Source: Fistulifera solaris
Lineage: Eukaryota; Bacillariophyta; Bacillariophyceae; Naviculales; Stauroneidaceae
NCBI GenBank assembly: GCA_030295235.1
Contig: AP026164.1
Coordinates: 1,488,001 to 1,552,000 of the forward strand
Length of the DNA: 64,000 nucleotides
Direction: 5' to 3'
Part shown: piece by piece, positions 5,449 to 26,757 of the stretch
How positions within the stretch are numbered: position 1 is the stretch's first letter
Layout: every line of letters begins with the position of its first letter
Program-made: the position numbers and the translations under genes
The notes under the pieces: model-generated
Databases searched by the model: none
What the model saw: the letters and a program-made list of their open reading frames with translations, nothing else
What the model was told of the DNA's origin: nothing

Positions 5449-6129
5449 TCATATCTCTATCTGAGACGACGCAAAAACCCCTCGCACACTTGTAGCATTA
5501 GATATTTCAGCTTCTCGTCGTCGAAAAATGTCCAAGGGAGTTTCAGAGGTTGTGTCTTTCATTTCGACAGCTTGTGGGGCAACTTCAAGAAGCTGGGACA
5601 AAAGTGCTAAAGGAATACAATCATGCCGCGCCATTAAATAATGCAACGGAGTCCTCAATTCCATAGTATCTGGCAGTTGCACCGCCGAACGGTTCGCGTC
5701 AACAATCCGCATCGCAATAGTCGTGTCCGAATTGCTATTCACTATTTCGTCGTTTCCTGACGTGACATAAAGCTCCATGCAAACAATGTGCAAAACGGTC
5801 CTACCAAAGCCATCCTTAACTGAGGTAATTGAATGATTCGCCTCGAGAATGCTTTCTACAGCGTTTCGCTTCCATTCCTGCATGTAACTTCGGGTCGTTT
5901 CATCCGCACAGCGCGTCGAATGTCGCAATAGGCGATGCAAGGCCGTATCATGGGGAGGATACTTGTGTACATAAAAGGTTTCTTTTGGATGAGATCGACA
6001 TCGTGCTGGAATTAAATCCCAATTATTTCCCGAAGATGCATATTTGTATAGTTTGGGCAACCGGAATCGTTCGTAAAAGGCGTAAGCGACCTGTTCGCGA
6101 TAGCAGCATTGCAATTGGTCGCCGGTCAT
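5449..6129 (-). CDS. Ankyrin-type repeat protein of diatom style
   Basis: The protein is about 227 residues from the ATG at 6129 (MTGDQLQ). Reading upstream to 6234 adds only a hydrophobic stretch that is probably 5' UTR. It begins with a block WDLIPARCRSHPKE followed by DTALHRLLR. Then come GRTVLHIVCMELY, TPLHYLMARHD and SETPLDIFRRRE, which match the TPLH/TxLH cores of ankyrin repeats about 35-50 residues apart. Diatom genomes carry many proteins that start with this W-x3-ARC-x2-HP block ahead of loose ankyrin repeats; their function is unknown. It is probably a cytosolic protein-binding protein. No frame break is seen. Confidence 0.72.
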   Translation of the reverse strand: MTGDQLQCCYREQVAYAFYERFRLPKLYKYASSGNNWDLIPARCRSHPKETFYVHKYPPHDTALHRLLRHSTRCADETTRSYMQEWKRNAVESILEANHSITSVKDGFGRTVLHIVCMELYVTSGNDEIVNSNSDTTIAMRIVDANRSAVQLPDTMELRTPLHYLMARHDCIPLALLSQLLEVAPQAVEMKDTTSETPLDIFRRREAEISNATSVRGVFASSQIEI

Positions 6130-6522
6130 GGTAGTAGAGATCCGCGAAAGGCTATTGAACGTGTATTGCTTGCTGAACAAGATGTAAGCTAAGGAACGTA
6201 ATTGTTGCGTGGCAATTGACTCTCTCAACATCAAACTTTCTTCCTTGTTCTACCAGGTACAAGTATTGTGAGTTTTTTTTGCCGTGTGGTGCACATTGCA
6301 CATGAAGGCGCGAACGTGCGACAACGATGACGTAATAATCAACTTACAGTAACAATGAGTGTCTTTTTCACGACTAAAATCTCTGTACGGTACCATTCCA
6401 AGTTCTCCAGAGTGCGAAATATTTTGAGTGCCTCAAAATGTGAGCAGGCCAGCATCAAATAGTACCGCTCCGACATATCCCCTTTCATTCACTTTTTCGT
6501 TCAAGGAGGAACGTGTTTCACC

Positions 6523-8312
6523 TCACTTAAAACAATCAACATCATGATCAGGAACAGGATGAGCCTGTGATTTTTCAAGTAAGCAAGAGAGATGTCCACC
6601 CAATGATCGGTATCGATGAATAAAACAGCATCGATCATGACGCTGGCAACTTTGAGATGCTTCGAATTCCGTGCACCATTGAGGATCTTGAATACGCAGT
6701 TTGAGCCAAGCGGAATGGGACAAAATTGGGGTGGCAGGATCGGTACTAGCTTCTTCGGATGCATTCGCATTCACCTGTCTGCGCGTGGAGAGCGAAACGC
6801 CTTCCGGCAAACAACCATTTATGTGACCCATTTTTGATTCAACCTCTTGAAGACGGCTTGGAGGTTTCGAAATCGGTGCGACAGCATCCTTCCGGGGGGC
6901 CTTGAGATAAACTTTTTGATCACAAACACAGGGTAAATTGCTATCCGGTAAAAGTGGGCAAGAAATACGCTCCGATACCAGCTCACCTTCCTCAAGATGG
7001 CCATCGATGAGACTCTGACACACCGTTAAGCTTCGCAGCGATTTCAGCGCATTATAGTAATCATTTGCTCAATCTGTGATTTCCGTAGCTGTTGAAGCTC
7101 ACCATTAGTGCCAGCAAGATGCTCTACTTTTGCTGAGCCATAGCAAAGGGGAACAAAACGGAGTTTTCAAAACGGGATCCGCACCTGCAGATAGAACTGA
7201 TTGAAATGCTGGCACGTCGTACAAAGCGATCGTGGCGTGAAGAAGTGCAAAGTGCTTTTCAGCACCAAAATGAATGTCCACTGAGAGTTTCGCTCCTTTG
7301 GATTCATCCAAATCATTGTTAAATGATTGAATTGAATTTACGCCCTCACGAATATACTTGAGTGCTTCATCCTTTTTCGCCTCTCATCTGGGGTGGCTTT
7401 TCGGGAGACGCTGAAAGTCTACGTGAGAAAGCCTCCCCAATTATCGTTGACGTCATTCTTGTGTAATCAGCACAATCACAACCCACTTTGAACGCAGATA
7501 GGCCAGATTCCAAAATTTCCACGGTACCCAAACATGTTGCAATGTTTACAGCGACAGGTCTCGCCATTATGCGAATTACAGTCTTCCTATTTGTTTCCAC
7601 GTATTTATTAAAGCTGATGGAGTAAGACAGATTGGATACTTGAATGACCTTCGGATTCCAAGGATATCGAAGACTTGTAGGTAATGTTAAGGTATCCCAT
7701 GCCGACACCTGGTCTGCTTCAAGGTAAATGGAACAATGACCATGGTTGATACTCTGTGGAAGTTGTAAGTTTCTTATTGCTACAACTTGGATATCGAATT
7801 TCTCCCAGAACCGAACGCTCGAGCTAAGTTAATAGCTCGAAGTGTTCGCGCGAATTTTTAATAACTTATCCTTCCTTTCCCGATCGCTGCATTCCTTTCG
7901 AGTAGCATGTCGAGCCTCGGCGAAATGCCTAACTGTGAGCTCATCTTTGTTTTCCATTCTTCTGCCCCTCTTATGAGCAGGATGAATATACTCAATCAGG
8001 GGCGTATATAGTGCCCCCTTGCTATTGCGCGTCTTCCAGACTAGCGAAACAAGAGTGACAATTAGAAGTGAACATGAGATCACTTTGTCGCCCTTGAGTC
8101 TCTTCGCTTGCATAAGTGCTACACTGCTCGTCAGAATTTCGTCTCGGTAAAATTTCCTTGTCGAGTCGAAACTATTAAAGTGTACTTTTCAGCGACGCTA
8201 ACCGTAACAGTAGACAGCTTCTTCTTGAGGGGAAAACAATCCGACTGTAAAAAACCATCCCAGCCTTTTAAGCTCGGCCCGTGCCACTCTCCTTCATCGC
8301 CCCATTGCGCTC
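6523..8312 (-). pseudogene. 3' half of the disrupted PDZ-C2-ANK-CCCH paralogue
   Basis: This is the downstream part of the left paralogue, cut off from its 5' half by the copia element at 8313-15407. Reading right to left it matches the intact copy at 21497-26757 in order: a helical region (about 7830-8080, with LIEYIHP and KDKLLKIRANT), the C2-like region (about 7430-7730, with YSISFNKYVETNR), an ankyrin segment (about 7110-7310, with HATIALYD and SAGADPVLKTPFCSP), and the first CCCH finger (about 6590-6650, with CQRHDRCCFIHRYRS). Several frame shifts and stops interrupt it. Similarity ends near 6523, just after PDHDVDCF, so the second CCCH finger of the other copy is absent. Confidence 0.85.
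8308..8312. repeat. Target-site duplication CGCTC, left copy
   Basis: The five bases CGCTC directly abut the left LTR and recur at 15408-15412 directly after the right LTR. A 5-bp duplication is typical of Ty1/copia integrases. Removing the element plus one copy restores a sequence that aligns with the paralogue near 23725-23745. Confidence 0.9.
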
Positions 8313-8766
8313 TCTCACGTATCGACGGACAGAAACAGAAATTCTGTCAACCAAGTCGCTACGTTTCGCAACAACAGAAGAGGAAGTATCTGGTAGAGCT
8401 AAGACGATAAACAGTCAAAGTTTTCCAAACAACAATATTATGAAGCCTTTACAAATCCGACAAATGAACAAGGTGGAATCTCACTGGGTGATGGTTCCGC
8501 CGAGAATGTCACTCTGCCATCGGACTAGGTCTTGTTTTATCTTGAAATTCTGAGCTCACGTATGTGGCTCTAACATTCTTGTATCGCGTTGCTTGCAAAC
8601 CTTTCACGCCTTCACGATCAACCCAAATCGTGCAAAGACCCTTGGGCCTCGCCCAAGAGGTTACACTCCGGATGCTTCCGATTTGGGGATCGGAATTCGC
8701 ATTAGGTCGTGCGGCCATATTGGCTGAGTCCCTAGTAGTCTGCCCGCTATCCGCATTTCCGTGACA
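8313..8766 (-). repeat. 3' LTR of the copia element
   Basis: 454 bp, nearly identical to 14954-15407. Differences seen: an extra CT near 8517, one C fewer and a TCC/CTC change near 8652-8675, and a GTGCGG/GCGGCGG difference near 8708. Confidence 0.93.
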
Positions 8767-11700
8767 CTCCCTCTCAGACGAAGAGGGACCACTTTCAACC
8801 CAACCCATTAACTTGTCTCGAAGATAGGTAAATGTTTCCCTAGGCATTCCTTTCGTCATGATATCTGCAAGCTGTTCTTTAGTGTCAATCTTGTTGATTT
8901 TCAATTCACCACTTTGAACATGTTGTCGGAAGAAATGATACTTCGTGCCGTAGTGCTTCGAGCGAGGGGTCATCCGCGGAATCGTAGCAAGAGTGAGCTC
9001 CATTATTGTCTTCAAATACATCCGAATGGGCAATGCTCTCGACTTGGTCTTCTCCAGTAATAGCCTTAGCAACAGCAGTAACAAGTCTTCGCATCGGCAA
9101 AACATCGCGCATGGCGGTACTCAATGCGACATATTCACTCTCCATTGTACTTAGAGAGATTTCAGACTGTAGCTTCGATACCCAAAGTAGGGGGCAATTG
9201 CCGAGCGTCAAAATATAACCAGTACGCGACTTCACACTTATCGGATCTTCAGGATCTTCAGCACCCCACAATCCGGCAAAGTCGGCATCAACAAAACAAT
9301 CAATTTTCAACTCTTTCGCCGGACGCATCACCAAACCACGATCTGCCGTTCCTTTTAAATAGCCGGACGATTCTCTTGATCGCTTTAGCATGACTTTGTC
9401 TTGGCGAATGAGTGAAACGAAGCACTGATGGACGGCAAATGCAATATCCGGTCGAGAGTTTGACGACAAGTAGAGCAACATTCCGACAACCGAAGCATAA
9501 TTCCAAGACTCGGCAAACGCAGCACCAGCCAAATCTTTTCCCAATGGCTTGTTTTCAGCAGGCGTGTCGCAAGAATTACAATCAGCCATGTCGGTGGCTT
9601 CGATGACGCGTTTAATGAGACCTTTCTGGGTCAACTCGATAGTATCTCCACGACGGGTAAACTGAATTCCCAAGAACGCCGGAAACATCTTTCGACTCCA
9701 CAGTTGAAGTTAAAACCTTGTCAATAGTGTCAATCATGTCATCCATGCACTTTTCATCGAGACTGAACCAAAGGCAATCATCGACATAAGTCAAACAAAT
9801 AATTTTCGTGCACGAACAGGCAAGCATCGATGTCGACCAACTGTTTGAAACCATGCTTCTCCAAAGTGTCCTTCAATAAGTTGAAGAATCGGAGAGGACT
9901 GTCGGACTTGCCGTAAAGCGTCTTTTGGAGCATCAAAACAGTATCTTCGCCATCGTCGTGAAATCCTTGAGGCATCTCGATGTAGCACTCTTCAGTAGGT
10001 GGCAAAGGAGCTTGAGCGAACGCATTGACATAATCAACTTGGCGGGTATGCATTCCGTGGACGATGGACATAATTAACAGCAACCGAACTGTGGACCACT
10101 GTACGACAGGAGAGTAGGACTCGAAGTAGTCTACTCCTTTTATCTCCATGTCGCCACGAACGCAAAATCTCGCCTTGTACTTTGTGGGTGTCCCATCCGG
10201 TGAACGTTTAAGCCGAAACGCCCAAGTGGATTTTATCACGCGCTTATTCGCGAGGTACTGAAGCTCGCGAATTTTCTTCCACGTCCCCATCATCTCCAAC
10301 ATTCGAATTTCTTTCACCATCGCCTCTTGCCATTCTCGATATTCGGCAGACGACATTGCTTGATGATACATTGGATAGTCGGGATCGGAACCTTTCTTTG
10401 GCTTCTTTGCACGCTGCATAGCGGCGAAAGCAACAGGGTCGCGCAAATCAAACTCGCCGATCTCCGAATCCCAACAAGCAACAAGGCCGGAATGAATCGA
10501 CGCAATAAAGGAGAAAGTTTCGCTAGGAATCGGGCGCAAGAACAACCGAAGCAACGTTTGTAATAAATTCGTTGAATCTCTTTGGAGCACGTCTCGCGAG
10601 TGGATCGGCGAGGTTCGGCAGGAACCGCTGGTGTCTTCTTCCGCGGCGAACTTGATGGAGGCTTGGCATCCACAGCAACCTTTGGAGCAGGAATCGGCTC
10701 AACCGGCTTTGAAATAGGCTCAGATAATTTAACAGGAGTAGTAACTGTCTTTTGTTCTGGCTCCCTCTGCAATGTAGGCTCGTTTGAACTCTTTTCAGTT
10801 GTAGGCTCGGCATCGGTTCGTAATCGCTGGTGCACTTTGTCGAAATCAACTGGAGGGCTAGCAGTGTCTTGGACGCTTCGAATTTTGCGAGATCGCTCTT
10901 GAATTCGAACATGCAACTCATCTTGACTCAACCATTCATCATCCAAGTCGATCGGATCATCCTCATCGAAAAATACCTGAAAGCGAGATGATGCGAAGAT
11001 GTCGGCCCAAGTCTCCGGATCGACAGAATCATCCTCATTAACAACATTCGAAACAGTGGCAAACCAATCATCAACAACAACATGGAACTGCGCGGAAATC
11101 CGGTTTGTTTCTAGGTTCAGAACGACAGGAACATTCGATGCATGCCGCTTTGACAAACCCAAGAAAACGCCGCGTCTCGAGCGAGGTTCAAATTTCGGAA
11201 TCTTGTGCCCATCTTGCAACTGAGGGTTCAAAATATAAGCGGGTGATCCCCATACATGCATATCAGCAAACACTTTCCGATCGGTCGTTGTTCTGAAGAT
11301 CATATCAGCCGGAGATGAATTATTTTCGCCGGGTCCGTAGTTGAAATTTTGAACGACATAATCGATCGCCTGAGGCCACAAATCCGAAGAAATCGCTTTC
11401 GGCCAACGCAGTTTAGCATGTAGCATCGTGGTGCGTGCGAGAGATATAATACTTCCGATCGCGCGCTCAGCAACAGCATTTTGGTGGTGAGCACCAGGTC
11501 CACTGAGAGTCATCGACTGGTAGTTCGTATCAATTTGCTTTGCGAACTCCTGCGCCCGTAAACGTGCCATTGTCGGTATGATATTGGACCACCGTGATGC
11601 CGTGATTAGCCATTGCACTTTCGAACTCCAACTTGGCGCGCAAAGCCTCGCCAGCAGTAAAATTCAAAACGTGAACGACATACACGAAGCCACTTGCATG

Positions 11701-13424
11701 ATCGACAAAAATAACAACGCCTTTGAACTTCTCATCATCCTTGGTACCACCGAAACCAGAGTAGAGACGACCTCTCGTTGAAACAGAGAAGTGATCCATT
11801 GAAACCTTCTGGCCCGGAATTAAAATATCCTTCGAGAGAACTTTGGATTGGCGATCGACGGTCAATTTCGCTCCAGTCGACTTGCGCTTTCCTTTTCCAT
11901 ACATACAAGCAGCGACTTGGGAATATCACAACGCGCCGCCGCTTTGACTTCAGCAGAATTTCCGAGAGCGCCGGTTTTGAGCAAGGCTTGAATATTTTTC
12001 ATGCTTCGGTGAACAAATCGGAAATGTAAGCGAAGAAGAAATTTCTGTGCTTCACTCAAGTTTTGATTCTCAGCCGCGGTCACACAGTTTCGAATCTTTG
12101 CAGCATTGAGAGCAACAGATTGTTTTCGGAACATCTCCAGAGTAGGCAAGTTGTTTTCCGGAGAGTAAACAATATCAAGAAAGTGGCCGTCCAACAGATC
12201 GACATGAATGAGGCTCGAGTCGCCTGAAAAACGCGGTTCGTCGTTTCGTTGCGCCTTCACCAATTGACAGTAGGACTGTGGGCTGAAGAGTCGGACATTG
12301 GCATCGGGCACATGTAATCCAGGGACCCGAAAAGTAAAGCCCTTGCCGTTGGACAGAGTAACAGTCCACTCAAGAGTGCCCGTGCCGGCAATCGAAGAAC
12401 CTGCAGCAAAGCCAGACAAAACTTTATCGCCAGTAGTCGGAGTGTAGGACGTGAAGTCAGCACGGTCGAAAGTAACAGCAACTGTGGCTCCAGTATCCCA
12501 AATAACCGGAAACAGATCCGCCATGGTAGGCTTTCCAGCGACATGCACTTGATGCAAAGCAGGGAGGGCATAAATAGACGGGGGCAGCTTCGCGTACGGT
12601 GCAAAGTAGGCTTTAGAGTTGTCTACACTATTATCTCCCTCTCGAAGCAACATCGTCTCACTTTCACTAGCAGCTCCCTCTGGAAAGAAATGCCCAGTGG
12701 GATAGCAAAACAGAAGAGAGTCGTCCAGTAGGTTCCAAGGCTTAGGATGCCCGTTCGGCGGACACGATAAATCTAAAGACTCGGTACACAAATGGCCATT
12801 GCTGTCAATCATATCCGGAAGCTCCAAGGCCCAACGAGGAATCGCTTCGAAGTCTTCGACGACGTTTGCTCCTCTCGCAGTTTCGACAAAACGATTTTGC
12901 TTGCGACGCCGAAAAACACCATCCTCACCATGCTGACAAGACGAATCTTTTGAAGATGAAGAAGGATCAGGAGGTCGGCAAACGTCGGCTGCGATCACTT
13001 GGATGAAACTGGTAGCAGCCATGCCAGGCGGGCACCAAGTTGACTCCATAAACAACACCGGGGGCGCCGAGCGTAGCGTCACTCGCCACATGCTCGTCAT
13101 GATCGAAGAAAGCACCATGAAACGACACGGGAGAGAGATGAGACGCTCGGGCAAAGGCGTGAATCGCGGCCGAAGACCAAGAGAGAAGCGATGAGCGGCA
13201 CTTTGGGCACGCAACCACTTCGAGATGGTCGCAGCAACACGGAAATGACGCCACCAAGAAAAGCACTCCACAATCAACCAGCAAAGAATAAAATGCTTGA
13301 AAGCTCCAACAATAAACGACCGATAAATATGGACAAAAGGCTCAGGAAGGGACCTCGATCGAAGGTTCACCTTGCCTGCCGATTTCCTATTCGAATCGCT
13401 GTCGGAACCCCAACAGAACTGCAA
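8509..13424 (-). CDS. pol: copia pol polyprotein: protease, integrase, reverse transcriptase, RNase H (frame-broken)
   Basis: Reading right to left: a long leader, then the aspartic protease with WDTGATVAVTF (about 12490). The pre-integrase region follows (LRLHFRFVHRSMKNIQALL, about 12020). The integrase core shows MDHFS, FVDHASGF and HTDNGTF (about 11780-11560) and the final Glu in HHQNAVAERAIG (about 11460). The RT contains KARFCVRGD, VDYVNAFAQAPL and the catalytic YVDD (about 9785). RNase H has CFVDADFAGLWG (about 9280), STMESEYVALS (about 9140) and a copia-type tail ADIMTKGMP (about 8855). The frame runs through the purine tract into the 3' LTR and stops at 8509. Frame changes lie near 11880, 11560, 10450-10580, 9810, 9690 and 8950. 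All catalytic residues listed are present, so decay is slight. Confidence 0.92.
8767..8776 (-). other. Polypurine tract
   Basis: On the coding strand GAGAGGGAG lies immediately upstream of the 3' LTR start TGTCACGG, the position required for plus-strand priming. Confidence 0.75.
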
Positions 13425-14878
13425 GGGTGCCGTCCAAGCTTGAGCAACATTAGCGGCAGGAGGGCGGGCTTGGCATCAGCGGGCTTCTCTTCTTTGCTCT
13501 TGTGCTCGTCGGTTCCATGAGTCTGGTTCCAACGCTTGCACTTGGCTAGCAATAATAGAAAGTCTTGCCGTACTTGGTCATGGTGGTGGGCTCGCCGTCC
13601 TTCGGTAGCGATGCGAAGTCCAACGAGTTTCGGTCGAACCACCGCTTTTCTTTCGCCATCACCACCGCTAGCCTTCGGAGCAGCCTTGTCTTTGTTCGCC
13701 TTCTTGTCTTTGGTCTTCGAGGAGGCAGTTTTAGTGCCGTTCGACTCGAATTTCGACTTGAGGGTCTTGAACTTCGGCTTTGAGACTCTTGATAGCCGCA
13801 GTATTAGCACTAACATCAGTAGCAACTCCTTTAGCCGGTCCCCAATCGTCCTTCAGGGTGCTGTAGAAATCTTTAGCTTCATGGAGAATGCGGCGATAGT
13901 TTGTATAACCGCTCATCCTTTCAGCAACTTCCTTCGACTTTCCGGCAGAGAGACGCACAAAGTCGGAGAGAGATGCCAACTTCGTGTGCCAGTGAACACG
14001 GAACGCCGACCGAACATTTGCACAGCTGCTGCTGCAAAATAATCAAGTGGTCGCTGAGGGAGCTGGTCATTAGCTTCCAACTCCTGCAAAGTCTCCATCT
14101 GCGCATTAGCCCCAAGCAGCAACATTCTCACCGGGAGTTTCAACCAACGTGGCGCCGTGAACTCCTCTCCGAGCTCTGAGACACGGCGAAATGCGTTGGG
14201 AAGAACTTCTTCGGTGATTTTCATCCAAACCAAAGGGCCAAAGCGGCATGGCCGGAACTCAAGGAAGTACGAATCGTGCGCTGGAAGGAGCTCCAACGAG
14301 TTGAGCAGAAAAGCAGCCGAATCGCTTAGCGAGTTGATCATGTACTGATCAAAGACACCGGACTTGATCATGTCTTCGAGATGCTTCGCGACTTCGTCGA
14401 AAGTGAACTTGCCATGGTACACGAAGAGATCGATGACACGACTGAGATCAGCAGGATCATTCATGTAGAACGGTATCGAGACCATGCGTAATACAATGGT
14501 TGAACGCTTCATCCGCGAGCTCAACAAGGCGGTAGTTATTCGCATTAGGACTGAACTTGGGGTCGAGACCGGCGATGCGATCCTTAAAACTTTTCTCAGC
14601 GCGATAAGGATTCGGATCTCGGAAGCAGTAGGGCGTCGCAGGCACAAGGTTAACACTGCGAGTAAAGTTTGCATCCGGAGGACCACCAATAGCTGGGATA
14701 GAACCTTGAACAAGGCCGAACTTTGGCGCGAGAACGGGCTCGGAAAAATGGCCTGAACATCCTTTTCGACTTTTGCGCTCGGTGAAACTGCGAGTCGAGT
14801 ACCGGCGGTCACCGGAGGAGGTTTCCTGTCATCAGTTTCGCTATCGGAAGACATATCGCGAATAACGAAAGACGACAA
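13367..14878 (-). CDS. gag: copia gag region (frame-broken)
   Basis: This is the structural protein region next to the 5' LTR. It starts MSSFVIRDMSSDSETDD at 14878 and contains a helical domain of retrotransposon-gag type (about 14510-13900: DQYMINSLSDSAAFLLNSLELL). A Lys-rich linker follows (about 13740-13650) and then a Cys/His cluster CKRWNQTHGTDEH (about 13560-13510) that sits where a nucleic-acid-binding zinc knuckle is expected. The frame changes at about 14760-14470, 13930 and 13800. The leader frame of pol overlaps its end. Assignment rests on position and composition, since gag proteins diverge fast. Confidence 0.75.
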
Positions 14879-14939
14879 AAGGGAGTAAGTAGGGCACGTG
14901 TATCAAACAACTGCAAAGACTGTACCAGATAGTGTAAAT

Positions 14940-14953
14940 CTGGGCTCGTAACC
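14940..14953 (-). other. Primer-binding site, possibly for a half-tRNA primer
   Basis: Directly adjacent to the 5' LTR the coding strand reads GGTTACGAGCCCAG. It lacks the TGG that would pair with a tRNA 3' CCA end. It matches, with one mismatch, the complement of a tRNA-Met anticodon arm (CTGGGCTCATAACC). Some copia elements prime from a cleaved initiator tRNA at this arm, so this is a plausible half-tRNA site. Confidence 0.6.
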
Positions 14954-15407
14954 TCTCACGTATCGACGGACAGAAACAGAAATTCTGTCAACCAAGTCGC
15001 TACGTTTCGCAACAACAGAAGAGGAAGTATCTGGTAGAGCTAAGACGATAAACAGTCAAAGTTTTCCAAACAACAATATTATGAAGCCTTTACAAATCCG
15101 ACAAATGAACAAGGTGGAATCTCACTGGGTGATGGTTCCGCCGAGAATGTCACTGCCATCGGACTAGGTCTTGTTTTATCTTGAAATTCTGAGCTCACGT
15201 ATGTGGCTCTAACATTCTTGTATCGCGTTGCTTGCAAACCTTTCACGCCTTCACGATCAACCCAAATCGTGCAAAGACCCTTGGGCCTCGCCCCAAGAGG
15301 TTACACCTCGGATGCTTCCGATTTGGGGATCGGAATTCGCATTAGGTCGCGGCGGCCATATTGGCTGAGTCCCTAGTAGTCTGCCCGCTATCCGCATTTC
15401 CGTGACA
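14954..15407 (-). repeat. 5' LTR of the copia element
   Basis: 454 bp, the partner of 8313-8766. It is flanked outside by CGCTC (15408-15412) and inside by the primer-binding site. Confidence 0.93.
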
Positions 15408-15412
15408 CGCTC
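15408..15412. repeat. Target-site duplication CGCTC, right copy
   Basis: Matches 8308-8312 exactly and joins directly to CCCAAAATCTG of the interrupted gene. Confidence 0.9.
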
Positions 15413-17797
15413 CCCAAAATCTGCTCCTAAATGAAGAAAAATATGGATTGTCGGAGTCATTAGCAAACCAGATTTCAAAGGGCAGCCTCTTCGTCCTAGC
15501 AGCCATCATGTGTCTTTTAAGATCTTGCGGACCCCAGATGTGTCGGACACCACAGCCTTCACTGATTTCGTCTCTGTGCGGCGGACGGCCGTCGTACTTG
15601 TCGGTCAAGTCGCTGAGCTGCAACTTTTCGATGAAAATTCCGATGATCATTGTTCCTGACTGTATTCGCTCGTCTTTTGAAGCCTGACCAGTCGGAGAAA
15701 CAGAAACGACTCTGCATGCGCTCAAAACACGATCGTAGATAGAATAAAATCCCAAAGGAAGCTCTGGGTCAAATTTATTTTTCAGGACTTCTTGATGACC
15801 AGTGTCGATATGATTGTCAGCGGTTGGTTCTAAAAAAGTGCTGCATAATATGGGTTCCTTCCTCATACTTCCATTTTGTCTCGTTTGTTGAGACATAGCT
15901 TGTATACGTATACTTGGTTCCTCACACTCTATAACTGGTGATGGAAGCTGGTTCTGTATCGACGCTCGGAGAGTGAAACTTCGTTTGTTCTAACGTCCTT
16001 GTTCACTTGTTCCACGGTCTGTGGGCCAATTCGATCACTTCGTCTCTCCGATTGCTGGTGTATTCGAGCGAGAGTGCTTGGCATAGACTTCGCCTCATGT
16101 GTAATTAGTTCCCTGTCTCTATACCCTGAATGCATCTCCTTTGTGTGCGACTTGCTTCCCTCGCCCCGTAGTGGAATCGCAAAAGCATCGGTTTGGTCCC
16201 CAAAACCAATATCACTTCGAAGTCGTTTATGCTGTAACATTTCTTCAACATGATCTGTTCGCCTCCTACTGCGTGAATCAGAAGTCGAAAAAGTCTCATT
16301 ATTGCTGGTTTTTCGTGGGGCGACGACATGACATTTGGAGTTCCAATCCTTCTTTCCCCAATTCTCAGTTGCAGTTCTTCGTTGCTCCACCGTCAAAGCA
16401 AAGTTACCCTCCGGAGGATACGGTAAAGTCTCGCGACTTGAGTGTTTTTCTGGCAAACAAACTATTAACCTTCGATCAAAACGCTTTAAATCGATAGAAG
16501 GCGCCAAACACAGCTTAATCTGGATGGTTTTTGCTCCTCGTTTGCGAACGTCTTCAATATGCTTTTTAAGCTCTTCGACAGTTTTACAATATGAGCCACC
16601 AGCTTCCACGATCATAGCCCCAGCAGTAAGGTTTTCTGGCGAAATGATGTCTGCAAGTTGACCCTTGAAAGCATTTTCCTTCAAAACTAACACCCCGATT
16701 TGCTGATCATCGAAGCTCTCCACTCTGACACCCAAACTTCGCGTAATGTCGACTTTTACCACCACTTCGATTCCCTCACTGTTCAAATGGTCAATATTAT
16801 ATCTTGCAATAAGTTCTCTGAGTTTAACCCCCAACGCGCAAAGAAAATTTTAACTAACTCTTTAGGACCTTCGACGACAAGCTTCCACGTATGCGGTCTT
16901 TCGTCGATTTTAAATAACTAAGTTTTCAGCTTGAGGCCCAATCCATTATTTATGTGTTCTTGGTTTTTAAAAAGCTTCGTGAAATTGGAAGAAAAAACGT
17001 CTTGTGATGAACTCTTTCGTACTTCCTGGTAAAAAAGCGCGGTACCTTTGATTCAGCCCTAATGATAGTATTCGCCTTTTCATCGATTGTTGACTTTTCA
17101 GACCGCCTTTCTATAGCAGCAATGCTGCTCTCTAGGCTCAAATCATTTGTCTCTCTTCTGCTCGACAAATTTTATCTTCTAGAGTACTGATCACCTCAAT
17201 CTCCTCAGCGCGACAGATGGACTCTTCTATCCGCTTCAACATATAATATTCCATTTTAGCATAGCATTCTTGCGGAGGTTTTGAGTCAAACGAAGGAGTA
17301 AGTTGTTTGGAGGAGTGGGATGAACCAGGAGACGAGACAATAGGATAGTCATCAGACCACTCAGCCTCCTCGTCAAACCGGAGACTTCCAATTTCGCCAT
17401 CCACGTATTCGTCAGCCTCCATCGCATTTTTATCTGCTGCGGCGGAAGAAGACAACCTAAGAATATTCGTATCGTGATGTTCTTGCTCATGAAAGCAAGC
17501 AATCGCCTGGTCATCGCTGGGTCTCGAATTATTCAAATGTGCATTCAGTTCGCGTTGCCAATTCTGTCGTTCCATCAAACCGTCGCTGCTATCCCCTTCA
17601 AAAGGTTGCTGTAGTTGCTCCTGACTGGTCCCTCAATGCAGTTCAGTACCCAACTGATTGTGAATTTGCTGCAAAGAATTGCTATCAGTTGCTTGCTCGT
17701 CGCCAACTCGAAGCCCCGACACGTCACGTTCTTCGTTTGCGACAAGTGTCCGATTCGATTCGACCCCAAGCGTAGGGTCATTTTCGTGGTTATCCAT
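15408..17797 (-). pseudogene. 5' half of the disrupted PDZ-C2-ANK-CCCH paralogue
   Basis: This is the upstream part of the left copy. The ATG at 17797 (MDNHEND) corresponds to MDDSALRV of the other copy. It shows the conserved acidic block EEAEWSDDYPIVSSPGSSHS (about 17390-17310), PDZ domain 1 (about 16770-16500, with SLGVRVES and EDVRKRGAKTIQIKLCL), and PDZ domain 2 (about 15820-15470, with LGFYSIYD and FEIWFANDSDNPYF). The copia element enters just after FRSRFWGA. An in-frame TGA lies at 17635-17633. Frame changes occur near 17155, 16830-16900 and 15900-15930. The linker between the PDZ domains is about 700 bp shorter than in the other copy. With the insertion, this is a pseudogene. Confidence 0.88.
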
Positions 17798-18688
17798 GAC
17801 ATACAAAAGCTAATTTTTGTATTATAAGCTTTTAAATTCCTGTTGTCAGGCACGCGAACCACCCCAGTCGATTTCACCGAAAGTTTTGTCAACGGTTTAT
17901 TATGAAATAAATACCTGGTACCTGGTACCGGTACCAGGTAATACGATGAACAATCAAAAACCAATATCCGGGTTTCCCCTAAATTTCCTGCGAGCGCTGC
18001 GTAAATTTTACGTAGACTTTTGAAGCATTGTATCGTCGCTCTTTCCTCAGTTATGATTTCGAATGGATTGTAAGCATCGTTTATTAGTGTGATTTATGGA
18101 TGCAGGGTCAAGTTTTTATATTTTCTGGGCATGAGAAAATATCACACGCTCATATTATCTGGGCACTCACAGATTTTCTGGGAACTTGAAAATACCACAC
18201 TGGCATATTATCTCTAGGTACGTGAAAACACAACAGGTCCAGATTTTCTGGACAAGCGTAAATAACACCCCCATATTTTCTGCGTACGTGAAAACTCCGC
18301 TCTCCCAGATTTTTTTAAGCAAGCAAAAATACCACTTTCCCAGATTTTCTGCGAGCGTGAAAGTACAACAGGTCCAGATTTTCTGATTATGTGTAAAAAC
18401 CACTCGGCCAACGTGAAACACCCCTTACCTGGTACCAGGTACACGCCCATAATTTTTTTGTGTTTCGACCGTAAAATGATGCGATAGATGTTTTTACTTG
18501 AACAAAAGAAGTTGTACTCCGTAGTTTTCTTGAAAGCATCTCTACTTCGACAGTGCTGCACCGCAAAGTAATAGGTCAATTTAGGTACAGCCGAAACAAT
18601 ACAAGAATCCCGGGCCGTATGTAATGTAGTACTTGACTGCCATCGTTGCGGCCATCATTTTTACTCTGCTTCTCGCGTCATATCCACC
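17798..18688. other. Intergenic region with GGTACC palindromes and a tandem array
   Basis: There is no gene. It contains a TACCTGGTA/GGTACC palindrome cluster (17913-17941), a 34-36 bp tandem array (18115-18410), a second TACCTGGTACCAGGTA palindrome (about 18425-18442) and TACTCCGTA (18515-18523). The last part is the promoter side of the PhyH gene. Confidence 0.6.
18115..18410. repeat. Degenerate tandem array, about 8 units of 34-36 bp
   Basis: The unit is roughly CCAGATTTTCTG-N5-CGTGAAAATACCAC-N6. Clear unit starts recur near 18173, 18240, 18270, 18307, 18340 and 18375. Units differ from each other at many positions, so the array is old. Both sides carry GGTACC-containing palindromes. It is not a CRISPR array: the repeats are imperfect and there are no uniform spacers. 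Confidence 0.65.
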
Positions 18689-19663
18689 ATGACGATGGAA
18701 AATTTTACCCCTTCCTTCTGTGTTTCCGTTCCATTAGATCATTCGGAACCGCATCAAACCAGTCTTCCACAGCATGTCATTAATAGCTTTCAGAAAAATG
18801 GCTTTGTTGTGTTCCCAAACGCTTTGTCGGTCCAAGATGTGAACGATCTTAACGAAGAGTTAGAGCGAGTTTTAGGCGGATATTACGATCGCGATCAAGC
18901 TCCGGATAAAATACCTCGAATAAAGAGCGGTTCAAATGAAAGCATTCTTACCAAACAATCCGGAAAGGTCATTCAAGTTATTAACGTCCACAAATCCAAT
19001 GCGCTTTTTCGTCGTCTCGCCTGTCATCCCACACTGGGACAGATTGTGGCCCAACTAGCCGGTTGGAAGCAAGGTACTCGGCTGGCACAAGATCAAATTT
19101 GGGCCAAACCTCCCGGAGCCAAGCCACTGGCATTTCATCGCGATTCACCGTATTTCATGTTTGCACCGAATGATGTTGTAACGGTGTGGGTTGCTTTAGA
19201 TGACATGACCGACGATGTCGGTCCTCTCGAATACGTGCGAGGTAGCCATTTGTGGCAGACAAAACAGCACGTGGGATCAGCAAAGCAATTCTTTCAGTCG
19301 AATGGTGGAATGAAACTTTTACACAGTGCTGCTTTACAAGCGGGTGTATTGGATGAACACTACGGGGAAGAGGAGTGTGCCAATAAGCTAGATTTTGTGA
19401 CCCTGCAAGGACTTCAGGCGGGTGGCATATCAATACATGACGGACGAACCTGGCATGGTAGTGGCAAGAATAAGACAACAAATCGACCGAGACGAGGGTT
19501 GGGACTGCATTTTGTGCCAGCAGAGGTTCGATTCACAGCAGAAGCGGTCAAAAGTTCCTTGTGGCGACAGTATGTCACAGACGATGTTGACCCTGCATCA
19601 ATCATTCTGCCACAAGAAGATTTTCCATTGACCTGGCAAACATCATCGGTATCAGAAGCCTAA
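18689..19663 (+). CDS. Phytanoyl-CoA dioxygenase (PhyH) family protein
   Basis: This 324-residue protein is an Fe(II)/2-oxoglutarate-dependent oxygenase of the PhyH family. The facial triad is visible: His-x-Asp in AFHRDSPYF (about residues 151-159) and the distal His in HDGRTWHGSGKN (about 251-262). An Arg suited to 2-oxoglutarate binding follows in RPRRGLGLHFVP. PEYVRGSHLW-like sequence (LEYVRGSHLW, about 175) is the usual family core. The substrate cannot be told from sequence; the family includes hydroxylases of lipids, amino acids and small metabolites. The start ATG sits in a good context (CCACCATGA), with an in-frame ATG two codons later. No targeting signal is obvious. The 3' end converges on the translin-TRAX gene only 47 bp away. 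Confidence 0.9.
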   Translation: MTMENFTPSFCVSVPLDHSEPHQTSLPQHVINSFQKNGFVVFPNALSVQDVNDLNEELERVLGGYYDRDQAPDKIPRIKSGSNESILTKQSGKVIQVINVHKSNALFRRLACHPTLGQIVAQLAGWKQGTRLAQDQIWAKPPGAKPLAFHRDSPYFMFAPNDVVTVWVALDDMTDDVGPLEYVRGSHLWQTKQHVGSAKQFFQSNGGMKLLHSAALQAGVLDEHYGEEECANKLDFVTLQGLQAGGISIHDGRTWHGSGKNKTTNRPRRGLGLHFVPAEVRFTAEAVKSSLWRQYVTDDVDPASIILPQEDFPLTWQTSSVSEA

Positions 19664-19710
19664 CAATAGTTTTATGATCGCGTATGGCAAATCATAATAG
19701 TGTTTATTTT

Positions 19711-21119
19711 TTAATCGTTTTGATTACCGTCGTCATCCTCCCCATGGTTGGAATCCGTCGTAGGAACAATGCGGCCGCCAGCGGCTTCTGACAGGCTCAT
19801 ATCGTAGAGCATACGCTCCAACTTCTCCTCCGTGCGACGGACAGCTTCCAATTTCTTTTGCACGGGGCATCGTTCCAGGCTTTGTAGAGCCGAAAGGACG
19901 GAGGAAACACCCTGTAGCGACAATTCAACGGCAGATTTGTCGCGAGCCGTACCACGTTGCACAGCGTAGCGTCCGATCTCACCCGTCAAATCACAAAGCC
20001 CACCAAGATACTCTTCCGGCTCTAGTGCCACCTCGGTAAAGTCCTCCATCTGGAGAAACACCCCAGAAACCTTGGAGTTACAAGTACCGTCAGAAAAGAA
20101 CGTATTACCGTATAACCAGGCTCCAAAGAGACGTGCCTCGACGTACTCCTCTAGCACACCAGTAAATGAACCAGCAGTTCGTAAAAATGGTTCCTCTCGC
20201 ACAATGGGCATCAATTCTTTTTGAATACAATCGCGGCACTCGTTCATTAAATCACGAGTTCGTTTCGTATCACCTCGATGGAGTGCAAAAATGGATTGTT
20301 TCGCCGCCTTTGACCGTCTCGACTTTTCTTAATCAACGATTCCCGCAATTCATCTCGATGATCCATACGCTCCTTGATACCTTGTAATTCTTCAGTGGGT
20401 ATGAGTGTAGTAGTCTCTGTCTTGATGCGTTTCGCTTCGGATGTTTCCGCGTAGGACGTATCTCCCAAAGTGGCTCCGGTGATAGATAGTTCGTAAAGCA
20501 ATGTTTCCAACGCTTGCAGGCTGTATTTGACGCCATCGTACTTTCTTCGAAGAGGACCGTTCCGAAAATCCATTTGCAGCAAAAAGTTTTGACATTCCGT
20601 CACCAAACTAGCTGCAGCCCTGACAGACGCAACATCCCGCACGGTCGCTCGCCCCAGCCCATAACGTCGAAGTTCTTGCGTCGATCCCATGACGGCGCCG
20701 GCTAAATATTCCTCATCCGTGAGAGTCGGATACGAACGAGTCAACTCGGAAAGTGACACGAGCGTCCCTGTTTCCAAAAAGTGCTGAAACGATTCGAGGC
20801 GAACAATATCTTCCATGCGATTCGACAAATTGGCCAAACGCGGTTCTCGCTCGAGAGCATTCAACAAAACGTGATGACACGTCTGTCGCAAGGATTCCAT
20901 CGCTCCCATCTCTCCCGCATGATCTTTGGATACATTCACAACGACTTGTAAATGTCGGGACAGTTCAAAGGCTTCCTGTCGTCGGGCTTCGACGGCCGTA
21001 ATTCGCGCCGACAAAGTGGAAAGATCCAGAGCATTTGCTGCAGCGTATTTGAGGGGAAGGCTCGGCATGTTCGAAAGGAAGCGAGTAATCGAATTGGCTG
21101 GCAAACAGCGTTTGGTCAT
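19711..21119 (-). CDS. Translin-TRAX fusion protein (C3PO-type RNase subunits), one frame break
   Basis: Two translin-family domains are encoded head to tail. The first (about 21000-20500) is translin-like: a conserved RLESFQHFLETGTLV helix and PLRRKYDGVKY followed by LLYELSI, the usual translin C-terminus. The second (about 20370-19770) is TRAX-like: KKSRDGQ, then FALHRGD, then LEEYVEARLF and YLGGLCDLTGEIGRYA. The latter two carry the Glu/Glu and Asp/Glu positions that form the endoribonuclease site of TRAX. In known organisms translin and TRAX are separate proteins that assemble into C3PO, which cleaves RNA passenger strands and processes tRNA. The frame breaks at A3 on the coding strand (20309-20311 in plus coordinates), where one A is missing; there is no stop between the domains otherwise. 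The linker is about 45 residues and charged. A separate TRAX start at MDHRDE cannot be excluded. Confidence 0.85.
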
Positions 21120-21496
21120 TCCAACAAATCTGCTTTCTGCTGTTTGACAACAGGGGACGTGTCTCGTTGTGCCCCTTCAATGATGAAAATGCCATCGCAC
21201 GAGGAAAAGATTTTTTTTGGTTGAAAGATCCGAAACACTATCGACGTACCGGTACCCGTTAAACAGATGTTTTAGTCGGCTCCCTTTATTAACGATATAA
21301 TATTCAATCAGTCACACGAAGATTCATGATTCATTCCGGACAAATCATCTACTCCGCATGTTTCGAAAATCTAAGGTTACCTGGTATAATTCAAAAGTCG
21401 GAGCATTGAGAATACCTGCAACTATAGTATGAGATATTCAAAGCGTTAGTATAAAATGCATGTCATCATTACCCTTAAATATTTAATATCATCATT
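21120..21496. other. Intergenic region
   Basis: This is the space between the start of translin-TRAX and the 3' end of the right PDZ-C2-ANK-CCCH gene, both on the minus strand. It holds one TACCTGGTA (21379-21387) and nothing else I can support. Confidence 0.4.
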
Positions 21497-24400
21497 TTAT
21501 TTGCTAGAGGCAATCGCTTCGTGAACTTTTTCCTCCGATTCAAACCAGAATAGCTCGTTCTTTTGATCAAAGAAACCTTCCCCGTTGTAGTCGGGGACGT
21601 ACCGCAGTGCATTATCACTCGAAAGCCTGTATCTAGCAGTGTAGTACAATCGACCTTCTCTCAAGTCCTTGCTGGTGTGAAACCGTACGTCATAAGGGGC
21701 GTCGCTTGAATCATGATGTTGATCGTTCGCTCGTACATTCTTATCCGAAGACTGATGGAATGGACCATACCCATGAAAATATCTGCACTTTTGGTCATTG
21801 TCTTTGCATCGAGGCCAGTACCTACAGTGACCTTTCTTCCTTTTCGATAAATTCGACCATGTGTTGGCAACAATTTCCATATCGACAAACTTTTTCTGAT
21901 GGTGCTGAACTGGCACTTTCTTCTGCTGAGCAGCCCAGTCATGCGCAGCCATTACTCTTGCAGCGCAAACAAAGCGCTTGCCTTCTTCGGATACCACCAC
22001 ACGTTCTGTGATGAAGGGACTCCATCCTGCCCCCCTTCTGCATAGAAGATCTGTTTCTCTCTTGTGTTAGAATTACTCAAGTAGCCACTGGTGAACCAAA
22101 CTTGTCCTGTCGAGGATTTCTCCTCCAAAAACACGCAGCAGCTGGTATCATGGTCCGGCACGATATGGTTACAAGACTTCTCAAGAATCAGATTTAGATT
22201 TTCACCAAAGGACCTGTACCTATGAATGAAATGACAATTACCATGACGCGGACACCTCTGAGATTTCTCAAAATATCTGCATAATTGGGGCTGTCGAACT
22301 CGTATGTCAAGCCACTTAGGATGATCTAAGATAGGGGTGATGTGCTCTGTCATAGATTCTTCTTCTGTTCTCATCCTGCCATCGATGGAGGGCAGGACAC
22401 CATAGAGGGGTCAGACACCCTTCCCGTTTCTTCTGCATAATTGACGTCTTGGCCTCTACCGCACTCGTTCATGAGCAGAATCATTTGTTCAATTACCGAT
22501 TTCCGTTGCCGATCGATCTCTTTAGCATCAGCCAACTGCCCGCTCATGTGCTGAGCCATATCAAAAGGTGAGCAATAAGGTGTCTTATAGAAAGGATTCG
22601 CACCTGCTGCAAGGGCTTTTTCCAACGTCGGTCCATCATACATTGCTATAGCGGCATGGAGGAGGGTTAAATGGTCTTCGTTGGTTGAGTGCATGTCCAA
22701 CGAAAGGTTGACCTCACTAGATTCACCGAGATCTTTGTTGAACGTCTGAATTGAATTCAACCCTTCATGAATATACTTTATCGCTTGATCCTTTTTCCGT
22801 CTTTCCTCTGGTGTTGATGTTCGAACCACACGAAAGTCTAAAAGAAAGGTTCTCCAACAATCGTAGATAAGGTCCTTGAGTAGTCGGTGGATTCACCATT
22901 TGCTGTGAAAACCGACAGGTCAGCCTCAGTAACATCAACTGTTCCCAGAAGAACTGCTGTTCCCGCACTGGTAGGTCTTGCCATCACTCTGATTTTGATT
23001 GTTCTGTTTGTCTCAATATATTTATTGAAGCTGATGGAATAAAACAGATCTGAGATCTCGATAGCCGTCGGATTCCAAAGGAACGATTGACTTGACGGAA
23101 GTGGTGCTGTATCTGACGCAGAAACTTGCTCCGCTTCAAGGTATACGTAGCAATTTCTATGCTTGATGCTGTGTGGTAATCGCAAACTTCTTATTGAAAA
23201 AACATGAATATCGAATTTCTCCCAGAATGGGAATGCTCGAACTAAGTTGATGGCGCGAAGCGTTCTCGCGCAGATCTTCAGTAGCTTATCCTTCATCTCG
23301 ACGTCACTTGGTGCGTTCGCTCTTGTCATACTACGAGCGTTAGAGAAATGCCTTTGCGTAAGTCCGTCTCTCATTTCGCTTCTTCCAAAAGGAAAAATAT
23401 ACTCAATCAAGTCGGACACAGTCCCCCTTGATATTGCATCTTCAAGGGTTTTGAATCGAAACTTCAGACTACTAGTTGAGATAGTGCATGCTTCATTGGT
23501 CCGGTGATTTTTGCCGTTCGACTCGCTCGTCATATTTTCTGTTCGGAAAAATATATGAGTGGAATCCTTACCACTGAACTCTACCATTCGTGAACGATCT
23601 GATTTCTTTTTGGCTTTATCATCTTCTGGTTGAAGAACACCATCTGACTTCTTTTTGGCTTCATTATCTTTTTGGTTCAAGTACACCGTCCCAGCCCGCA
23701 AAGTTCGGCCCTCGCCATTCTCCTTCATCTCCCCATTGCGCTTCCCGAAAACGGCTCTTAAATGAATTGAAATACGGATTGTCGGAATCGTTGGCAAACC
23801 ATACTTCAGCAGGCAGCTCCTTCTTCCTAGCAGCCGTCATGTGTGTCTTGAGATCTTGTGGACACCAGATGTGACGGACACTACTTCCTTCATCGACCTC
23901 GTTTATGTGTGGAGGAGGACCCGGGTACTCGTCTGTCAAGTCGCTGATCTCCAACTTTTCAAAGAAAATTCCGATAAGCTTCGTCCCCGGTTGTATTCGC
24001 CTATCTTTTGAAGCCTGACCCGTCTTACAAACAGAAACGACTCGGCAAGCTTTTGAAACACTATCGTAGATACAATAGAAGCCCAAAGAGAGTCCCGGGT
24101 CGAATTTAGTCTTGAAGACCTCTTGATCATCAGTATCGATATGAATATTTGCGTGCGTGTCGATGATAGCGCTCCCCTTGGGCGGAGAAGTTTCGCTCCT
24201 CGTACGCTCAGAAACTTGGGGGGATTGGGTCATGGAAATCCCATCGCTACAAGAACTATTGCCAACCGTCTGCATATCAGTTGTTGCTGCTTGCGCTGCC
24301 GCCTGCTGTGGCATCGACGAAGAATTGACTCCACGTGATTCTGGGCATGCTTGGTTAAAAGCTTGGCAACTAATTCGATTGGTACTGTTGTCACTTGCTG

Positions 24401-26757
24401 ACTGCCCAGCTACCTCTTCCCTGGCAGCCTGCTCAATTCTCGAACGCATTGTACTTGCTTCCCCAGGCTCTGTGTTCCGTGAAGGAGACTTTTCCAGTAA
24501 CAAATCGTCCTTTGAGTTTCCAACCTCCCACGAGAAAACACTTCTGTTTAGTCCGCCGTTTGTGTCCATTGACTTCGCGGTCGTCTCCCCACCTCCGCCA
24601 AATCGTTTTTTCGATTGCAGGCCATTTCGCGATTGCGTACTTGTTTCGTGAGCGTTGACTTTACCATCTCCATTCAGCGAGGGCGTTCGGGCAAACCCTA
24701 CCGAAACAGTTGTCCCTTTACCAGCAACATACTCTGTCCTGGAAATCAGGGTCTTAAATTGCTCGGTAACTCGCGAAAGAGGCCGCTTCGGGGAAACACA
24801 GGCGGTCAATCCACCATTGTTCCTTAAAGACTTCGTCGTCCTTTGCTCGCTTGTGGCATTCACGGGAGACATCTGGGCGGGATACCCTACGTTGCTGGCC
24901 GGGCGAGGTAGATCTAACGGCTTGTATCGAACACCGTACTTTGTGCTCGAGGTCAGAGTAACTGCTTGCTCGAGCTCCGTATTTCGCAACTTATTTACTA
25001 CCTTCACACATTGGCTCAATCCATCGTTCTTGTTGAGCGGCTTCGTAGTCCTTTGTTCATCATCGCCAATGGATTTAGCCGGCGGCTGACCACTTCGAAC
25101 ATACAAGCCTGAACGGGAGCTTGATCTTTCATTTAAGTTGTGTTTACCACCTTCATCCACAGACTGGATCTTCTTTTTGCTACTTTCGCCGACAGACCTT
25201 GAGAGGCGACCATCTGAAGAATCATTTTGATCATTTCGAACTCGTTTTTGCTGTAGGGCTTCGTCTGTAGCAATATCGTCTTCTTTTCGCTTCTTTTCCG
25301 CGAATCAGAAAAAGTCGGCGAAGTATCGGCGCTACTCGGCGCAGCCAGTTGAGGCTGAGCGGCTAAACCCTCTGGGACCCACTCTTCATCTTCCGGGTCT
25401 TTACTTGACGTCTGTTGCTGATTCCTCACAGACTTGAGTCGAAGGCGCCTTGCTACTTGTGGAAGTGAAATAGTCTTGCCGTTTGATCGGTCTACTGGCA
25501 AGGATACTACCGCAGTGTGATCGATCCTATTAAAATCGACGGTGCGGGCTAAACAAAACTTGATCTGAATCTCTTTCGCTCCTCTTTTCCGAACGTCTTT
25601 AATAAGTATTTTCAGCTCTTCGACACTCTTGCAGGATGCACCATCGGCTTGCAAGATAATAGCCCCAAAAGCAAGGTTCTGCGGCGAAACCACATCGGCA
25701 AGTTGTCCTTTGTAGCCATCTTCCTTTTTCAAGACAAGCAAACCTGACTGGTTGTTACAACTATCTACTCTAACACCCAAGCTTTGCGTTGCATCCAATT
25801 TCAGTGTTATTTCAATTCCCTTAAGAAGCAGTTGCTGAATTGTATGACTTGTAACACGCCTTCTAAATTCTTTTCCCCAGTGAACGAAAAAGAGTCTCAC
25901 TGCTTCCTTCGGGCCTTCCGCATTAAGAAGCCATGTCTGCGGGCTGCCTTTGACATCCGTTAAAGTTGTTTTCAACTTTGTCTCTTTCTTGATAGCCGCG
26001 CATTTTTGTCGGAAATTTGTCGTGCATTCGGTCAAAAACTCGCTTGTGACGAACTCTTTCTTGCTTCCAGGCAGAAGGCGGGGTACCTTTAGTTGAGCCC
26101 GAATCATAGAGTATTCCGTTTCTTCACCACGTAATTTTTCGACTTCTTTTCTACGTTCACGATACGAGTTTCCAAGTTTTTCAACAAATGCTTCTCTTCT
26201 GCACGACACAACAAGTCATCCAAAGTCTTGATCAATTCCTTTTCCTCGGCGAGACAAATGGACATTTCGATGCGCTCCAACTCATCCGATTCCAACTTGA
26301 CGTAGCATTTATCTTGGACTTTCGTTTCGAAAACAGGGGTGAAACGACTGGAAGAGTGAGAGGAACCAGGCGAGGAGACGATAGGGTATTTATCCGACCA
26401 TTCTGCCTCTTGATCGACGTGCATATTCCTCATTTCCTCATCAATGTCCTCATCGGCCTCCATTGGTTCATTGTTTGCTTGACCTTCTCCTCCAAAACCT
26501 CTATTCGCTTCTGCGTTAGTATCATGTTGCTCATTCTCAAGCTCCATCAAGCCCTCATTTCGTTCAAGTAACGGCTGAGCACCGAGTCGAATGTAATCTT
26601 GCAGCAAGGGATCACGATGGAGATCTTCCAAAGGAAATAATGCAATGTCTTGCTCACGGCCGAGACGAAGCCCTGATACTTGCTCGGTACGGTTGCGACG
26701 CTGTTCGTTCGCAACAATTGCCTGAATGAAGTTGACCCGCAAGGCCGAGTCGTCCAT
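21497..26757 (-). CDS. Large multidomain protein: PDZ-PDZ-C2-like-ankyrin-CCCH-CCCH (undisrupted paralogue, frame-broken)
   Basis: The protein has about 1,750 residues, read across about six single-base frame changes. The start ATG at 26757 (MDDSALRV) is conserved in the left copy. Order: acidic N-terminus with EAEWSDKYPIVSSPGSSHS; PDZ1 (residues about 313-403, 25819-25549, SLGVRVDS and DVRKRGAKEIQIKFCL); a linker with three internal repeats (TTKSLRNNGGLTACV type); PDZ2 (about 875-997, LSLGFYCIYD to VWFANDSDNPYF); C2-like domain (about 1185-1287, FDIHVFSIRSLRL to VLLGTVDVTEADL); one ankyrin repeat (about 1363-1404, LLHAAIAMYD); CCCH fingers C-x8-C-x5-C-x3-H (22293-22218) and C-x5-C-x6-C-x3-H (21823-21775). 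Frame changes: 26135-26139 (T5), 25284-25296, 23669-23673 (T5), 22840-22843 (A4), about 22375, about 21990. The architecture suggests a membrane- or scaffold-linked RNA-binding protein; the function is unknown. Confidence 0.8.

Follow-up and report, generated by a model that had tools for sequence, protein, structure and literature searches.

A candidate RNA-binding scaffold with PDZ and CCCH modules, and its decaying tandem duplicate, in the diatom Fistulifera solaris

The 64,000-nucleotide stretch of the Fistulifera solaris genome analysed here (the window; contig C4, positions 1488001-1552000) contains a pair of paralogous sequences on the minus strand, a right copy (R, 21497-26757) and a left copy (L, about 6529-17797). 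The two are separated by a gap of 3.7 kb and their common sequence blocks occur in identical order, in agreement with the original prediction, made from this DNA alone, of two same-strand paralogues about 4 kb apart. The explanation that we prefer, with a confidence just above even, is that R encodes a working, fast-evolving RNA-binding scaffold, while L is an ancient duplicate that is being lost in both subgenomes. The R product would be a protein of about 1,750-1,850 residues and a putative RNA binder; its predicted first half comprises an acidic N-terminus, a coiled coil, an alpha/beta domain (maybe KH-like), a first PDZ segment (PDZ1) and a long linker carrying a bipartite cluster of basic residues, and the second half a further PDZ segment (PDZ2), a strongly conserved segment with no assigned fold, ankyrin-like repeats and two modules, each made of a CCCH finger followed by a tail. 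This architecture, a new arrangement of known modules, is moderately supported by the data presented below, and the mechanism is proposed on its basis.

A second collinear pair, C3R and C3L, is carried by contig C3, where positions 1556001-1586000 are collinear with positions 1-34946 of the window, with 83-90% DNA identity in long blocks. Five pieces of R were searched against the whole genome (51.7 Mb, 61 contigs), scoring the best candidates only, and the matches were confined to R and L on C4 and to R and L on C3; a reading of the coiled coil and alpha/beta domain as resembling ORF1 of a long interspersed nuclear element was set aside because the pieces matched only these four copies at two collinear places. 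No relative was encoded in viral contigs or in prokaryotic genome contigs, collections that do not comprise other diatom genomes. At the protein level, the homoeologues are 77-80% identical for R and 80% overall for L, and R and L share 47-64% identity within C3. Synonymous divergence (dS) between R and L within C3 is 0.78-1.6, compared with values of 0.34 for R and 0.18 for L between homoeologues, which indicates that the tandem duplication predates the split of the subgenomes. The ratio of nonsynonymous to synonymous divergence (dN/dS) of L versus R within C3 is 0.18-0.32 (like dS, for the four of the five stretches where it was computable); this finding, together with the dS values, suggests that both R and L were long under constraint.

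R is most likely a real, functioning and fast-evolving gene. Indeed, in C3R a single open frame of 1,325 codons extends over the linker, PDZ2, the C2-like, strongly conserved segment, the ankyrin-like segment, both fingers and the stop codon, and a second open frame of 544 codons covers the coiled coil, the alpha/beta domain and PDZ1; the larger frame supports the earlier claim that PDZ and CCCH domains occur in one chain, as it holds PDZ2, the ankyrin-like segment and the two fingers. In the window, the R protein is divided among overlapping frames, and inspection by eye suggests that the breaks are differences of one base, located for the most part in short homopolymer stretches. Frame-breaking differences between homoeologues amount to 6 in 4.97 kb for R (1.21 per kb). 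Two places are outside this count: the beginning of the N-terminal region, in which C3R differs by another 5 bases, and the junction of the two open frames of C3, at which the break falls at different positions in the two homoeologues. In ten neighbouring reading frames, 10 such differences occur in 7.35 kb (1.36 per kb), and L has 18 in 3.75 kb (4.8 per kb). Since the rate in R matches that of the ten neighbouring frames, the breaks in R are probably assembly errors; the other indels of R, ten out of ten, are multiples of three. Pfam confirmed three of the control frames, one of PhyH and two of Translin, the latter two perhaps belonging to a single gene; the rest are long conserved frames with dN/dS of 0.01-0.29, one of which has a stop in the projected frame.

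Between homoeologues, dN/dS is 0.35 (interval 0.30-0.42) for R, 0.57 (0.45-0.72) for L and 0.11 (0.09-0.14) for the neighbours; thus, R as a whole is under selection, though its dN/dS is roughly threefold the value of the neighbouring frames. Within R, the lowest values were obtained for the C2-like segment including its helical part (0.18, 0.12-0.29) and for module 2, i.e., finger 2 and its tail (0.22, 0.11-0.45), followed by the coiled coil (0.29), PDZ1 (0.29, 0.14-0.60), the ankyrin-like segment (0.34, 0.12-0.88), PDZ2 (0.35, 0.19-0.63), module 1 with finger 1 and its tail (0.36, 0.17-0.77), the alpha/beta domain (0.37, 0.17-0.71) and the linker (0.63, 0.43-0.96); many of these intervals are wide, and several single segments are indistinguishable from the linker. 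The original prediction had read the conservation between R and L, with both start codons and all domains retained, as the mark of a real protein. This holds for R, in view of the open frame in C3, the purifying selection and the background rate of breaks, but not for L, which is decaying; likewise, the start codons are kept between homoeologues, but the L copy of the window is devoid of the second finger.

The presence of CCCH fingers in R is supported. The ligand pattern C-x4-15-C-x4-6-C-x3-H occurs twice in each R copy, with intact ligands in both C3R and C4R and a separation of 132 residues between the two fingers. With the Pfam zf-CCCH model, finger 1 scored 17.9 and 18.6 bits in R and 10.1 bits in L, all below the cut-off of 20.5, and finger 2 was matched by Nab2-type Pfam models, also below cut-off. 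When a profile of the second half of R was compared with PDB, the best match was butyrate response factor 2 (1rgo, E 0.0044), also called TIS11d. Two other CCCH entries followed with E-values of 0.02 and 0.041, then tristetraprolin (1m9o, E 0.79) and a subunit of RNA polymerase (E 1.4). The two fingers claimed earlier are therefore upheld by the ligand spacing of both and by the PDB match of finger 1, with Pfam scores remaining sub-threshold. The two CCCH-plus-tail modules resemble each other with a BLASTP E-value of 0.005 and an hhalign probability of about 3%; that they arose by duplication is possible, not proven.

Pfam returned no PDZ, C2, ankyrin or KH match in the copies; PF00595 gave none there up to E 10, and the locus was absent among the at least 90 genome matches listed (E up to 1). 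Because Pfam gave only sub-threshold CCCH matches, profiles were built from domains of the same genome that Pfam had found (20 each of PDZ, C2, ankyrin and KH), and the query segments were calibrated against 156 unrelated pieces and 200 shuffles each. With the PDZ profile, none of the 156 pieces scored as well as PDZ2 in any of three sequences (C3R, which has a long insert, was not in the set), and hhalign gave a probability of 72%; PDZ1 was equalled by 0, 1, 1 and 2 pieces for its four sequences, while its own profile found 12 weak matches in PDB, none of them a PDZ entry. Thus, of the two PDZ domains proposed earlier, PDZ2 is supported in R and PDZ1 moderately so. The ankyrin-like segment, equalled by 4, 5 and 12 pieces for its three sequences, is also moderately supported; the four best background pieces came from an ankyrin-like gene nearby and from its homoeologue on C3, and the low-confidence AlphaFold model shows a helix pattern compatible with two ankyrin-like helix pairs, so that the single repeat claimed earlier becomes about two, with no Pfam match. 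For the C2-like segment, 3, 9 and 9 background pieces scored as well as its three sequences with the C2 profile, and the C2 assignment is thus unsupported; the segment is 85% identical between homoeologues and, among the long stretches of R, shows the strongest constraint. In the AlphaFold model, local confidence (pLDDT) is 76-77 for residues 21-40, which belong to PDZ2, and mostly below 50 for the C2-like region.

In the N-terminal half, the AlphaFold model from the coiled coil to PDZ1 of C3R (306 amino acids, 8 rows) has a mean pLDDT of 57; it shows a long helix (residues 31-95) and, modelled better, a b-a-b-b-a stretch (residues 101-196) that reaches 60-89 in ten-residue blocks up to residue 190 and 42 in the last block. 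Comparison of this model with PDB by Foldseek gave 745 matches, the best 50 of which, listed without the aligned part of the model, included 12 KH domains (target-normalised template-modelling score, TM, 0.51-0.63; best E 0.17), 2 de novo designs within the first seven rows and one ZO-1 PDZ3. Judging from the fold, the KH-type matches would align to the alpha/beta domain, which is possibly KH-like in structure; its 98-residue sequence stretch gave one weak match only against PDB. The basic cluster points weakly to the nucleus. The linker of C3R contains a degenerate repeat (offset of 71 residues, 16 of 40 residues alike) and is longer than that of C4R by 213 bases at one place.

On this architecture, the CCCH modules, perhaps together with the alpha/beta domain, would hold RNA, and the PDZ and ankyrin segments would hold protein partners, while the coiled coil could form a multimer and the basic cluster may allow nuclear entry; in this way, R may bring RNA-processing or mRNA-decay partners onto chosen transcripts. 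R is probably a nuclear RNA-binding scaffold and not a membrane tether; if this is true, a diatom possesses a PDZ-based scaffold with its own RNA-type fingers, i.e., a fast-evolving candidate RNA regulator. A more far-reaching version, which we consider doubtful, is that R represents a new protein class, perhaps restricted to diatoms or their relatives. Such proteins would bind RNA in the nucleus through a KH-like domain and duplicated CCCH-tail modules, with the PDZ domains bringing partners to this RNA, and the dN/dS would be about three times that of the neighbours.

Several results weigh against the scaffold explanation. R is not an open frame in the window, and its projected frame contains one stop, adjoining an indel; every Pfam match in the copies is below its cut-off, and hhalign with the own-genome profiles misses both PDZ1 (0.9%) and the C2-like segment (1.8%). 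The second half of the protein (PDZ2 to the end; 896 amino acids, 16 rows) was modelled with a mean pLDDT of only 39, too poor for a structure search. The Foldseek search of the first-half model found no PDB match below E 0.001, and the same 50 best rows hold 14 MscS-type channels (TM 0.09-0.27); with the own-genome KH profile, none of three sequences scored above zero, and hhalign gave 0.2%. Moreover, the pattern of the basic cluster arises in 31-52% of shuffles of its four host pieces, and finger 1 alone has a dN/dS of 0.74 (0.10-3.22), over 22 codons and with an interval too wide to judge.

Alternatively, the C2 and PDZ domains might anchor the protein at membranes or signalling sites while the CCCH fingers hold mRNA, a role that had been suggested in the original prediction. 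In favour of this, the PDZ-like segments are supported, constraint among the long stretches of the protein is strongest in the C2-like segment, and the C2 profile ranks the three sequences of this segment above all other query pieces; however, C2 failed the calibrated test described above, the aspartate ladder carried by a canonical C2 domain was not seen in the segment, and the basic cluster found in all four copies points, albeit weakly, to the nucleus, which makes tethering to membranes decidedly unlikely. The protein could also act through fingers that contact other proteins or DNA, in which case R would be a scaffold in chromatin or transcription and not a regulator of RNA; this would agree with the basic cluster and with the distance of 132 residues between fingers that form no close tandem pair, but we hold it to be unlikely, as finger 1 matches CCCH entries of PDB, best butyrate response factor 2 and, only at E 0.79, tristetraprolin, whose CCCH fingers bind RNA, and finger 2 resembles Nab2-type fingers, although below cut-off.

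The frame breaks present in all four copies, and a dN/dS in R three times that of the neighbours, could instead mean that both copies are pseudogenes, relics of a lost gene family. This is highly unlikely, given that R breaks at the rate of the neighbouring reading frames, that the upper bound of its dN/dS is 0.42, that its ten other indels preserve the frame and that the 1,325-residue frame is intact in C3; for R, the pseudogene reading was judged unlikely on the basis of the indel-rate control and dN/dS.

Among known systems, the nearest design by likeness is that of the plant ANK-RR-TZF proteins (CCCH subfamily IX, AtTZF group), which contain ankyrin repeats and two CCCH fingers and are encoded by intronless genes (PMC2267713, PMC8609832). 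Their fingers, C-x7-8-C-x5-C-x3-H and C-x5-C-x4-C-x3-H, lie 16-18 residues apart, and RR-TZF proteins are described as triggers of mRNA degradation (PMC8609832). R shares with the family the two CCCH fingers, the spacing type of finger 1, the C-x5-C start of finger 2 and the lack of a visible intron, and its ankyrin-like segment may correspond to the ankyrin repeats; unlike the plant proteins, its fingers are 132 residues apart, its finger 2 is of the C-x5-C-x6-C-x3-H type, and it adds PDZ segments, a coiled coil and an alpha/beta domain. A further feature of the family is an arginine-rich motif, C-x5-H-x4-C-x3-H, before the fingers. As the spacing of 16-18 residues is not found in R, R resembles the ANK-RR-TZF proteins and is not a member of the family. 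With butyrate response factor and tristetraprolin, R has in common the spacing of finger 1 and the best PDB sequence matches; however, those are far smaller proteins with tight tandem fingers, whereas R is a far larger multidomain chain with distant ones. As for Mint-type tandem PDZ scaffolds, rat Mint2 (3suz) ranks first in the Foldseek comparison of the model that includes PDZ1 (E 0.015, probability 0.51), but the match is weak (root-mean-square deviation 20, TM 0.19), the PDZ segments of R are far apart and CCCH modules are present. The KH domains of FUBP1, hnRNP K and poly(C)-binding proteins share the order of strands and helices with the alpha/beta domain model, but only one helix is modelled in place of the two of KH type I, and the sequence profile gives no support. 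Among the open-licence papers listed by literature searches, on diatoms or at large, no described protein joining PDZ with CCCH was found.

Judged from its sequence, L is a decaying ancient duplicate that is being lost in both subgenomes. In the window, its codon 55 is a TGA, whereas the frame of C3L continues at this point, and about 0.9 kb of the 3′-end is gone, including the second finger; C3L is also frame-broken, and its finger 2 is present but frame-broken. The pair thus offers a clear example of one tandem duplicate that is retained while the other is being lost in both subgenomes. L of the window is also split by a copia-type long terminal repeat (LTR) retrotransposon, with an RVT_2 (reverse transcriptase) match and LTRs that are 98.5% identical over 458 aligned columns; C3L has an empty site at this place, and the element is young. 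This insertion, like the coiled coil, the alpha/beta domain, the basic cluster and the second pair on C3, had not been part of the original prediction. The features of both copies are listed in Table 1.

Table 1. Features of the right and left copies in the window.
Feature	Positions	Strand	Remarks
Right copy (R)	21497..26757	-	ATG at 26757, stop at 21497, no visible intron; about 1,750 amino acids if frame breaks are assembly errors
Predicted coiled coil	26149..26289	-	AlphaFold helix 31-95 of C3R; acidic N-terminal region upstream
Alpha/beta domain, possibly KH-like	25817..26107	-	b-a-b-b-a
PDZ1 of R	25532..25819	-	GLGF-like loop SLGV
Bipartite basic cluster, possible nuclear localisation signal	25230..25295	-	counterparts in all four copies
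PDZ2 of R	23784..24146	-	insert, length varies between homoeologues
Most constrained long segment (C2-like in the original prediction)	22841..23449	-	dN/dS 0.18; helical, then beta-rich
Ankyrin-like segment of R	22464..22670	-	about two repeats
CCCH finger 1 of R	22222..22281	-	C-x8-C-x5-C-x3-H
Aromatic tail after finger 1	21958..22107	-	strands then helix (low-confidence model)
CCCH finger 2 of R	21773..21826	-	C-x5-C-x6-C-x3-H; identical in both homoeologues
Tail after finger 2	21500..21655	-	by eye resembles tail after finger 1
Left copy (L)	6529..17797	-	ATG at 17797; nonsense TGA codon 55 (near 17633); 3′-end deleted at about 6509-6529
PDZ1 of L	16487..16774	-	
PDZ2 of L	15417..15818	-	
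Copia-type LTR retrotransposon inside L	8313..15407	-	5-bp target duplication CGCTC
L counterpart of C2-like segment	7421..7810	-	
CCCH finger 1 of L	6616..6675	-	finger 2 deleted here

In the neighbourhood of the pair, adjacent and overlapping minus-strand frames at 19711-21176 contain two Translin domains and align with frames of C3; they may be parts of one fused translin gene that an assembly error has divided. More generally, the conserved frames of the region collinear between the window (1-34946) and C3 (1556001-1586000) carry single-base frame breaks (10 in 7.35 kb, over ten frames), so that the assembly may hold many homopolymer errors; as a caution, a broken frame in this assembly often reflects an error. 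The neighbouring ankyrin-like gene (window 5449-6249; C3:1562860-1563657), which tops the background set with the own-genome ankyrin profile, has no Pfam match up to E 0.01. Pfam also gave weak matches below cut-off, for example to phosphomevalonate kinase and PRP21, which were taken as chance. Elsewhere in the genome, the Pfam PDZ matches (at least 90 for PF00595, E up to 1) include clusters on the homoeologous-looking contigs C15/C16 and C11/C12. Finally, a short degenerate tandem repeat with a 69-bp period and 2.5 copies is located at 18220-18386 of the window, within the open reading frame 18214-18654, and related repeats are present in C3.

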